From a virus: a stretch of DNA of 23,786 bases. The notes beneath the pieces are model-generated. The model did not search any database. It saw only the letters and a list, made by a program, of their open reading frames with translations, and had not been told where the DNA came from. This document shows positions 6,157 through 18,391 of this stretch, piece after piece (position 1 is the stretch's first letter; each line of letters opens with the position of its first letter). The DNA lies in IMG/VR virus record IMGVR_UViG_3300006735_000262, positions 1 through 23,786 of that record. The stretch is one strand, 5' to 3'. The translations under genes and the position numbers were made by a program.

Positions 6157-6462
6157 TCAGCTACCTGTACCTGTACCTGTACCGGTGCCAGTGGTTGTTG
6201 TACCAGTAGTACCAGTTCCAGTTGTAGTACCAGTTCCGGTTCCAGTCGTGGTACCAGTGGTCGTACCTGTGGTAGTTCCCGTGGTGCCAGTGGTGGTCCC
6301 AGTGGTAGTAACCGTGGTAGCCGTAGTGGTCGTCATAACAGCCGTGTCGGCTGTCTCATCACCCTTCTCGTCTCCACATCCAGTAACGAATGCTAGAGCC
6401 GAAAGTGCTGCCACTCCAAAGACCGCGCCAAAGACGTGATCACGATTAATAAAACTAAACAT
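6157..6462 (-). CDS. Thr/Gly-repeat lipoprotein; o-spanin or moron candidate
   Basis: This is a 101-residue protein with an N-terminal signal (hydrophobic residues about 11-26) ending in a lipobox, VTG-C29. Signal peptidase II would cleave before C29 and the protein would be lipid-anchored, probably in the outer membrane. An acidic linker (GDEKGDETADTA) leads to about 57 residues made almost only of Thr and Gly (44-100), a flexible extended tail. There is no catalytic domain. Its start overlaps the stop of the membrane-protein gene by one base (TAATG), with AGGAG ten bases upstream. This order, inner-membrane protein then lipoprotein, is the layout of two-component spanins, but it could equally be a surface moron that alters the host envelope. 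The repeat also opens frames on the opposite strand (6145-6439), which lack a lipobox and are shadows. Confidence 0.72.
   Translation of the reverse strand: MFSFINRDHVFGAVFGVAALSALAFVTGCGDEKGDETADTAVMTTTTATTVTTTGTTTGTTGTTTGTTTGTTTGTGTGTTTGTGTTGTTTTGTGTGTGTGS
6163..6333 (-). repeat. Low-complexity Thr/Gly codon repeat in the lipoprotein gene
   Basis: About 170 bases consist of alternating ACN and GGN codons in blocks such as T-T-T-G and T-G. Synonymous codons vary along the tract, so it is not a perfect tandem repeat, but it is repetitive enough to allow slippage and length variation between relatives. Confidence 0.75.
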
Positions 6463-16772: not shown

Positions 16773-16940
16773 TTAATCTTTGCCTAATTCATGCTCTTTT
16801 TGTTCTATTAGCCGCTTTATAAACCACTTTCGTATAGCTATAGGTAGACTGTAAGCCTCGGCATATGACCATTTACCATAATAGCATAAGAAGAAGAATT
16901 CTTCGTATACATCCTCTAGGTAGTTATCAGGAAGGCCAAA
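16773..16940 (-). CDS. Start-less 55-residue frame, probably expressed as a +1 frameshift extension of the gp26-like protein
   Basis: After the gp26-like frame ends, a frame shifted by +1 continues to a TAA at 16773-16775. It encodes a coherent sequence containing LPDNYLEDVYEEFFFL, CYYGKWSYAEAY and LPIAIRKWFIKRLIEQKE, which looks like a real protein: aromatic and amphipathic, not random. The frame opens at 16973, just after a TAG, and has no ATG, GTG or TTG codon before the conserved part, so independent initiation is not possible with standard starts. Frameshifting at 16936-16944 would give a fusion of about 325 residues. Paired short and long products from frameshifting directly before the tape measure are a known hallmark of tail assembly chaperones in other phages. 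That this is the role here is inference. A sequencing indel is the main alternative. Confidence 0.65.
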   Translation of the reverse strand, partial: FGLPDNYLEDVYEEFFFLCYYGKWSYAEAYSLPIAIRKWFIKRLIEQKEHELGKD

Positions 16941-17751
16941 GAAAGTTAATTCCGAGTGGCACCTCCCGGACCACTACATGTTGACAATTTGGGCACTGCA
17001 CTTCTTGTTCCATATCAAGAGAAGGATTTACACTATCGTAAATCTTCTTTATGGTTCTAGAATCTTGTGCCGGCATTTGATCTATAAAGTTTTCTAATTC
17101 TTGCCTATCGCTAATAGAATTAATCGACACGACGATCATTTTTAATAAGTTAGTCCTGTTAGCCTCTGGTAAGTTGTGTTTTACGCTTGTCTTTCCCGAA
17201 TCCTCAAGGAATTTTTGTTCTTTTGAACTTAGAATCCTTAATTCCGCCGTGAAACCAGTAACGGGCAATTTAACAGCAAAGGTACCCGCCGATGTCAGAT
17301 TAATATTTTCTGGGACTTTCTTAATTGGCAAGTTTGTAAGATCTATAACATGCTCATGCTTATGGGAACAAGCTGGGCAAGTGACTTGTCCAGTATATTC
17401 TGGTCCATAACCAGTAGCGCGGGTAGCAATCATAAGTGCCGTCTTGTCCCCAGGGTAAAGTGTGGTAACATCAATTGTCTTGTCAACAAGAACGCTTTGT
17501 ATTAAACGATCGATAACAACACCTCGGCTAATCAAAGCCCTAGATGTCAGAATGTCTTCTTCCTTAGCCGTCATGTAGTTTATTTCTACTTCCGGTACAA
17601 GGTGAAGTGGATGTCCCTCAGGATAAAACTTTCCTTCGGTTGGTAACTGAACAAACTCAGTTGGTCTCGTAAAGCTTAGCGCTCCGCTAAACTGTGGAAC
17701 GGGGGGAGCAGCAGGTGCTGACGCCCTATTCTTATTATTTCTTCTAGCCAA
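16927..17751 (-). CDS. T4 gp26-like baseplate protein (T4_baseplate family) with CxxC pairs
   Basis: This 274-residue protein matches the T4 gp26-type family by eye: FTRPTEFVQLPTEGKFYPEGHPLH (28-50), MTAKEEDILTSRALISRGVVIDRLI (60-84) and LYPGDKTALMIATRATGYG (98-116). Two CxxC pairs, C125/C128 and C253/C256, could form one zinc ribbon. Between them lies a mixed domain ending in repeated helices. The protein ends LGINFLWPS, like the FFWP-type ends I associate with relatives. In T4, gp26 is needed for baseplate hub assembly. The position between tail tube and tape measure, together with the frameshift-like downstream frame, also fits an assembly chaperone. The start codon is TTG at 17751 behind GAGGTG, since no ATG is available upstream in frame. 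Confidence 0.72.
   Translation of the reverse strand: MARRNNKNRASAPAAPPVPQFSGALSFTRPTEFVQLPTEGKFYPEGHPLHLVPEVEINYMTAKEEDILTSRALISRGVVIDRLIQSVLVDKTIDVTTLYPGDKTALMIATRATGYGPEYTGQVTCPACSHKHEHVIDLTNLPIKKVPENINLTSAGTFAVKLPVTGFTAELRILSSKEQKFLEDSGKTSVKHNLPEANRTNLLKMIVVSINSISDRQELENFIDQMPAQDSRTIKKIYDSVNPSLDMEQEVQCPNCQHVVVREVPLGINFLWPS
16936..16944 (-). other. Candidate +1 ribosomal frameshift site
   Basis: Frame 0 reads AAC-TTT-CTT-TGG. Slipping forward one base at TTT onto TTC (same tRNA-Phe), or at CTT onto TTT (the slip used in bacterial prfB), moves ribosomes into the small downstream frame. Frame 0 ends nearby with TGA-TAA at 16929-16924. Confidence 0.5.
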
Positions 17752-17770: not shown

Positions 17771-18391
17771 TTAGCTGTAGTTTTGTCCTGGGCCCCAGTA
17801 TTTGTTTAGGCCAGGAGCAGGGTTCTCAGAACCTGGGCCGGGATCTGCCTTATTATTAGCACCGCCAGGCTTAAATGTCTCTATGGAGGCCCAATCGTAA
17901 CGGCACTTAAGGGAAACTGTTGTAAGGCCTTCCGAGCCGTACTCTAACTTCCCGCCATAGTTGATCTCCGTAAGGAATGGGTTGGTTAAAGTCCATCTTT
18001 CAATTGGATCACCCGCAGCATCAATCTGCTCAATAACAATTGATTGAAGCGCATCGACTGCTTCTTTTTTAGAGATTGTAGTGTTGTCGTTAACATCAGT
18101 CGGTGGACGATACCCTGAATCGAATAGGATTCTAGACAAGTTAATAGAAGCATCAGGACTAACAGGATCAACCAATTCAATCGTAATCTCGTTCCATGTT
18201 ACTTTTCCTGGATAATAGAAGGTATGGTTTAAAAACTCATGAGTACTGGGGTTTACATTAACTTGCGGTTTTGTGACCGACTTAGAATACCATGTAGCCC
18301 CATTAGGCATGGATCCAATGCGAACTAAAAACCTAAAATTTCTTTTTGGCGACACTGCCGCTGAGGTCCAAAACCCTGCTGTACTTGACAT
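17771..18391 (-). CDS. Tail tube protein, T4 gp19-like
   Basis: This 206-residue protein would polymerise into the inner tail tube that guides DNA. It shows the tube fold layout: an N-terminal segment NFRFLVRIGSM (18-28), a central FLNHTFYYPGKVTWNEITIELVDP (53-76) with the conserved PGxxxWxxIxIxLxDP pattern of gp19 proteins, and a C-terminal LEYGSEGLTTVSLKCRYDWASIE strand pair typical of tube subunits. A Pro/Gly/Asn-rich tail follows. It lies immediately downstream of the sheath gene, as in T4 (18-19). AGGAG lies ten bases before the start, and a candidate late promoter motif lies at 18416-18430. Confidence 0.85.
   Translation of the reverse strand: MSSTAGFWTSAAVSPKRNFRFLVRIGSMPNGATWYSKSVTKPQVNVNPSTHEFLNHTFYYPGKVTWNEITIELVDPVSPDASINLSRILFDSGYRPPTDVNDNTTISKKEAVDALQSIVIEQIDAAGDPIERWTLTNPFLTEINYGGKLEYGSEGLTTVSLKCRYDWASIETFKPGGANNKADPGPGSENPAPGLNKYWGPGQNYS

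Follow-up and report, generated by a model that had tools for sequence, protein, structure and literature searches.

A probable programmed +1 frameshift behind a gp26-like tail assembly chaperone gene and its recurrence among phage relatives

We describe a tail gene locus of a marine phage in which a conserved small domain lies in the +1 frame behind a gp26-like gene. Judging from its sequence and from those of its relatives, the locus in all likelihood employs a programmed +1 frameshift, by which a short and a long tail assembly chaperone would be made immediately upstream of the tape measure gene; we regard the +1 shift as such as very probably real. The argument is carried by what can be read in the sequences themselves: a conserved layout, a small frame with no conserved start, a slip motif under constraint, a folding signal upstream of it and the homology of the extension. 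Throughout, 'the window' denotes the whole stretch of DNA that was analysed, 23,786 nucleotides in length.

Introduction

Frameshifting in tail assembly chaperone genes is conserved among long-tailed phages and is mostly of the -1 type, with T4 as the named exception (PMC5009743). The tail assembly chaperones of T4 are gp26 and gp51, the products of a short and a long gene, according to the work of Vladimirov, Gautam and Davidson (2022, Virology 566:9) as it is cited in PMC10885494 and PMC12846349; the latter also credits that study with polyT -1 signals in T4-like phages (PMC12846349). The preliminary description of the present locus had proposed that gp26 is the T4-like equivalent of the G/GT chaperone, which agrees with Vladimirov et al. 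as far as these two papers convey their findings. A literature search omitting most subscription journals found neither the +1 variant nor a frameshift in injection systems, and likewise no experimental data on injection systems with the domain DUF6760, to which we return below.

Results

The locus and its start-less frame

The gp26-like open reading frame matches PF12322 (E 1.5e-18; 67.7 bits against a curated Pfam cut-off of 24.5) and phrog_150 of PHROGs (E 5.9e-19). It lies between the tail tube gene and the probable tape measure gene (Table 1), which is the position of a tail assembly chaperone. The product of the probable tape measure gene has no Pfam match over cut-off; in phage immuto, which has the same gene order, the gene in its place is annotated as tail tape measure. 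The 23.8-kb record holds a single gp26-like gene and no T4-style pair of separate paralogous genes; as the record is a fragment, a second gp26-like copy may exist elsewhere in the genome.

At its 3' end the gp26-like frame reads GGA ATT AAC TTT CTT TGG CCT TCC TGA, so that the protein ends in NFLWPS. Between the TAG at 16974-16976 and the TAA at 16773-16775 the +1 frame has no stop; it reads FGLPDNYLEDVYEEFFFLCYYGKWSYAEAYSLPIAIRKWFIKRLIEQKEHELGKD and encodes a conserved domain of about 55 residues ahead of which there is no ATG, GTG or TTG. Much of this had been noticed in the preliminary description, and it is confirmed in the sequence: the gp26-like frame does end in FLWPS at 16927 with the +1 frame behind it, the TAG does close that frame upstream, the conserved part is indeed preceded by none of the three start codons, and the TTT-CTT-TGG reported from the overlap is found at 16936-16944. 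The small domain has no match in PHROGs. An identical sequence was found in another IMG/VR contig (L002).

Table 1. Features of the chaperone locus and its neighbourhood, in window coordinates
Feature	Position	Strand	Remarks
Probable tape measure gene, 476 aa	15300..16730	minus	placed directly after the chaperone
+1-frame extension (T-like domain), GGC... to TAA 16773-16775	16773..16937	minus	predicted fusion 325 aa
gp26-like short tail assembly chaperone	16927..17751	minus	T4_baseplate PF12322; putative start TTG 17749-17751
Slip site TTT-CTT-TGG in the 0 frame	16936..16944	minus	TTY-YTT-TGG in 94/94 motif loci
Predicted 5' RNA hairpin, candidate stimulator, upstream of the slip	16954..16977	minus	-10.2 kcal/mol, z -2.3 relative to synonymous recodings
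GGAGG, Shine-Dalgarno-like	16962..16966	minus	20 nt before the P-site codon
TAG closing the +1 frame upstream	16974..16976	minus	
Tail tube protein	17771..18391	minus	phrog_4542, E 4e-19
Tail sheath protein, 990 aa	18451..21423	minus	phrog_23, E 1.1e-63

Two further observations concern other genes of the window. The tail sheath protein, with its 990 residues, is about twice as long as the phrog_23 profile (496), and a minus-strand frame at 6157-6462 encodes a 101-residue lipoprotein-like product whose long Thr/Gly tail consists of imperfect tandem repeats.

Recurrence among relatives

Searching viral contigs with the gp26 protein yielded 16 loci, and an alignment query gave at least 80 more. 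Together with GenBank phages, the matches listed make up 103 loci in which the gp26 end can be read; once duplicates are taken out, 94 distinct loci carry the TTTGG motif. The small domain lies in the +1 frame in 101 of the 103 (among the matches listed), far from what chance would give, and the recurrence of the two-frame layout and slip sequence, which the preliminary description had proposed to look for in related phages, is clearly positive. Cultured members with the +1 arrangement are Microcystis phage Mel-JY01, the Flavobacterium immuto phages and Rhodothermus RM378; the motifs are different in SP-15, LIS04 and GXN1, which share the +1 frame, and a scan with SP-15 gp26 as query matched SP-15 itself alone. 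Unlike its +1 relatives, the jumbo phage LR756511 (L024) has the domain in the -1 frame, preceded by T-TTT-TTC. In BRock the small domain falls below threshold, but its +1 frame is nonetheless similar in appearance. With the layout present in 94 distinct loci, a sequencing error is rejected as an explanation, and relatives in which one extra or missing base would make a single gene, the form that such an error had been expected to reveal, were not seen among the loci examined.

From the slip onward, F-G-L is invariant in all 94 loci among the matches listed. Followed to the tenth codon past the slip, the open +1 stretch contains no ATG in 48 of the 94 and none of ATG, GTG and TTG in 26; start codons in the remaining loci are scattered, and none is conserved. 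Stops in the +1 frame are found at codons -12, -9, -5 and -3, in 26 of the 94 listed loci just 2-4 codons ahead of the slip, and there are none in the 13 codons after it.

Signals at and upstream of the slip site

The motif reads TTT-TTT-TGG in 83, TTT-CTT-TGG in 6 and TTC-TTT-TGG in 5 of the 94 distinct loci among the matches listed. In the window the P-site CTT (16939-16941) can re-pair with TTT (16938-16940) by a +1 shift, and as a matter of base-pairing potential the +1 re-pairing of YTT gives UUU in 94 of 94 listed loci. The A-site codon is UGG here; distant +1 members have CAC, CGT or AGT instead. In 93 of the 94 listed loci the base immediately before the T-run is one of C, G and A, and codons of the form NNC outnumber NNT by 67 to 1, against a gene background of 1311 to 2058 in which NNT is the commoner (p 4e-26, a value that overstates certainty because related loci are counted as independent). 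We read the non-T at this place as serving to avoid U-UUU-UUU, a -1 slippery heptamer.

In 59 of the 94 listed loci (L003-L112) an exact GGAGG stands at the same place, 20 nt ahead of the P-site codon. The Glu codon at -8 that makes it is GAG in 62 cases and GAA in 2, with a background of 700 to 1035 (Fisher p 1e-21, overstated for the same reason). At 20 nt, GGAGG is too distant for action of the prfB type. The likeness to prfB that had been suggested for this site thus holds in part: the re-pairing on YUU-U stands, CUU-U in prfB being the same P-site codon with the same slip, while the A-site stop codon and the nearby Shine-Dalgarno do not, since prfB has UGA where UGG is found here and a Shine-Dalgarno by the slip is absent, with an upstream hairpin instead.

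RNA folding provides a further signal. Over the 94 loci among the matches listed, the 36 nt before the slip have a mean fold z of -1.63 relative to synonymous recodings, compared with -0.26 to +0.11 in five control windows of the same gene; the signal is strongest in the last 27 nt before the slip (mean z -2.08), and folding in the windows downstream is weak (mean z -0.25 to -0.69). The nucleotides of the hairpin at 16954-16977 are near-invariant in the window's own clade, where one of its pairs varies: three loci have U-A, L008 has C-G and further loci have U-G. Between loci the register of the upstream hairpin varies, and RNAalifold gave no consensus structure either upstream or downstream of the slip. 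Identical residues share the same codon at a frequency of 0.67-0.79 at the 3' end of the gene versus 0.46 elsewhere. In published experiments with a 70S system, +1 frameshifting was raised and -1 frameshifting lowered by hairpins lying just upstream of the slip site (PMC6321510), which fits the forward direction proposed here. Between the two sequence signals, the 5' hairpin appears a likelier stimulator than the Shine-Dalgarno.

Fold and homology of the product

The AlphaFold2 model of the fusion has a mean pLDDT of 86, with the extension predicted as helices of lower confidence (67-84). VIA-align, run on Foldseek candidates whose Foldseek E values are not significant, gave moderate Z values for the PDB chains 3fgx (6.6), 3klu (YqbN, 6.1) and 2ob9 (HK97 tail assembly chaperone, 5.7), these top three over residues 15-124, and 3.9 for the fourth row; GenBank phage loci were left out of the fold alignment rows.

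Profile comparison by hhalign relates the extension to the small frame of cyanophage gp51 (81-89%) and to DUF6760, and in neither case did a column-shuffled control score as high; the Pfam model of DUF6760 (PF20546) scores 17.5 bits on the extension, below its curated cut-off of 27. DUF6760 is in turn related to the P2 extension E' (hhalign 84%, with a weak Pfam cross-match), annotated as the product of a -1 frameshift. The direct profile match between P2 E' and the window's domain is not significant, and the link passes through DUF6760. Nor is the direct profile match between the small frame and the C-terminus of T4 gp51 significant, 20 of 60 shuffles being as high; the cyanophage frame is related to that C-terminus, as the KVP40 record likewise states, which provides an indirect link for the window's domain.

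Layout and direction elsewhere in the family

In all 79 parsed cyanophage contigs U-UUU-UUC precedes the domain, which lies in the -1 frame; 3 of these contigs have no start near the domain, and the cyanophage-like layout is also found in Syn9, HTVC008M, KVP40, phiAS5, phiM12 and Melnitz-3. The gp26-gp51 small gene of cyanophages and KVP40 resembles that of the window in its order, in its related domain and in the slip motif just before the gp26 stop, but lies in the -1 frame with U-UUU-UUC/U; as most of these phages have an ATG after the slip, only some are start-less. T4 shares with the window the PF12322 family and a long form composed of a gp26-like part and a C-terminal extension, residues 1-201 of gp51 matching PF12322 and about 48 residues following. 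In T4, however, gp26 and the longer gp51 are encoded by two separate genes without a shift, and no start-less frame was found behind gene 26, where gene 25 comes next.

In Vibrio K441 and YC and in Pseudomonas Cygsa01 (L295, L296, L300) the domain lies in the -1 frame, its start overlaps the preceding stop as TAATG, and a slippery heptamer is absent; to judge by this arrangement, it is possibly made there as a separate polypeptide. A start codon of its own, which the preliminary description had envisaged as evidence against a shift, is present only in some distant -1 relatives, and is not conserved in the +1 clade.

Contractile injection systems of bacteria and archaea (L213-L292) were found with an approximate DUF6760 consensus as the query; the matches are real loci, and Pfam confirms the query as DUF6760. 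G-GGG-G occurs in the gp26-like frame in 79 of these 80 loci, and DUF6760 lies in the -1 frame, start-less in 22 of the 80 (Nostocales, ANME-1 archaea, Myxococcota and others); the actinobacterial systems have GTGA or ATGA overlaps. The pattern suggests a -1 frameshift in contractile injection systems. They resemble the window in that a gp26-like zinc-ribbon protein is followed by a related small domain, and differ in the -1 frame, in G-GGG-G and in being cellular systems. On the gp26 tree, in which long branches meet, direction is clustered, with 4 changes for 4 groups (the minimum being 3) and none of 200 shuffles as low.

Discussion

How might the two forms be made? In the mechanism that we infer, and with it the occurrence and efficiency of the shift, the parts played in it by UGG and the hairpin, and chaperone function in this phage, most ribosomes would stop at the TGA at 16927 and release the short form, gp26. 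In a minority, the tRNA on CTT (UUU in most relatives) would occupy the P site with UGG waiting in the A site; these ribosomes would step one base forward, the tRNA re-pairing with UUU, and would then read GGC CTT CCT and onward into a long form of 325 residues with a helical C-terminal domain of about 54 residues. The predicted junction peptide of the fusion is ...GINFLGLPDNYLEDVYEEFFFL. The forward shift is probably helped by the 5' hairpin as it refolds once the ribosome has passed. If the analogy with lambda G/GT holds, the tape measure protein would be bound by the gp26 part and the tail tube protein recruited by the extension. Lambda G/GT and P2 E/E+E' likewise owe their short and long chaperones to a frameshift ahead of the tape measure, in their case a -1 shift, and their direct sequence link to the locus is not significant.

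Could the small frame instead be a separate gene, reached by re-initiation or by a non-canonical start near the gp26 stop, so that the two halves are separate polypeptides? GGAGG does lie at an RBS-like spacing to +1 codon -5, where 13 of the 94 listed loci have a start codon, and the overlaps in the distant -1 relatives (TAATG) and in the actinobacterial injection systems (GTGA/ATGA) point the same way. Yet that very codon is a stop in 22 loci, neither a start nor a near-cognate start is conserved, 26 loci are start-less, conservation starts exactly at the slip, and T4 gp51 has a related domain fused to its gp26-like part; we consider a separate gene improbable. We find it harder still to accept that ribosomes enter the +1 frame through a -2 shift, which is known in Mu (PMC5009743) and which the preliminary description had mentioned beside +1. 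On TTT-TTT-TGG, the motif of 83 of the 94 listed loci, a P-site UUU could re-pair two bases back, but in the five TTC-TTT-TGG loci this would put tRNA-Phe on UCU; the distant TTT-C members (SP-15, GXN1, LR756508) fit +1, and the 5' hairpin favours forward movement. The -2 alternative is disfavoured. Transcriptional slippage on the T-run, yielding an mRNA one base longer or shorter, might be thought of in view of the run of seven T in most loci. The window, however, has just TTT-C-TTT, and the 11 of the 94 listed loci in which the run is interrupted keep the layout, so that we give slippage hardly any credence.

The programmed +1 frameshift preferred here places the locus in a large group of gp26 relatives with an apparent forward frameshift, in a setting where T4 was the stated exception (PMC5009743). 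Whether frameshifted short and long chaperones are a common rule of the gp26 family, including the injection systems of cyanobacteria, actinobacteria and archaea, with a direction that switches between +1 and -1 and with a +1 lineage stimulated by a refolding 5' hairpin and a sense A-site codon, we regard as an evenly balanced proposition. The loci, at least 94, offer many natural sites for studying how the bacterial ribosome slips by +1 on a sense codon. On this reading, annotation would miss the long chaperone or give it a wrong start in many marine phages, and the same reading predicts that frameshifting would also be found in contractile injection systems.
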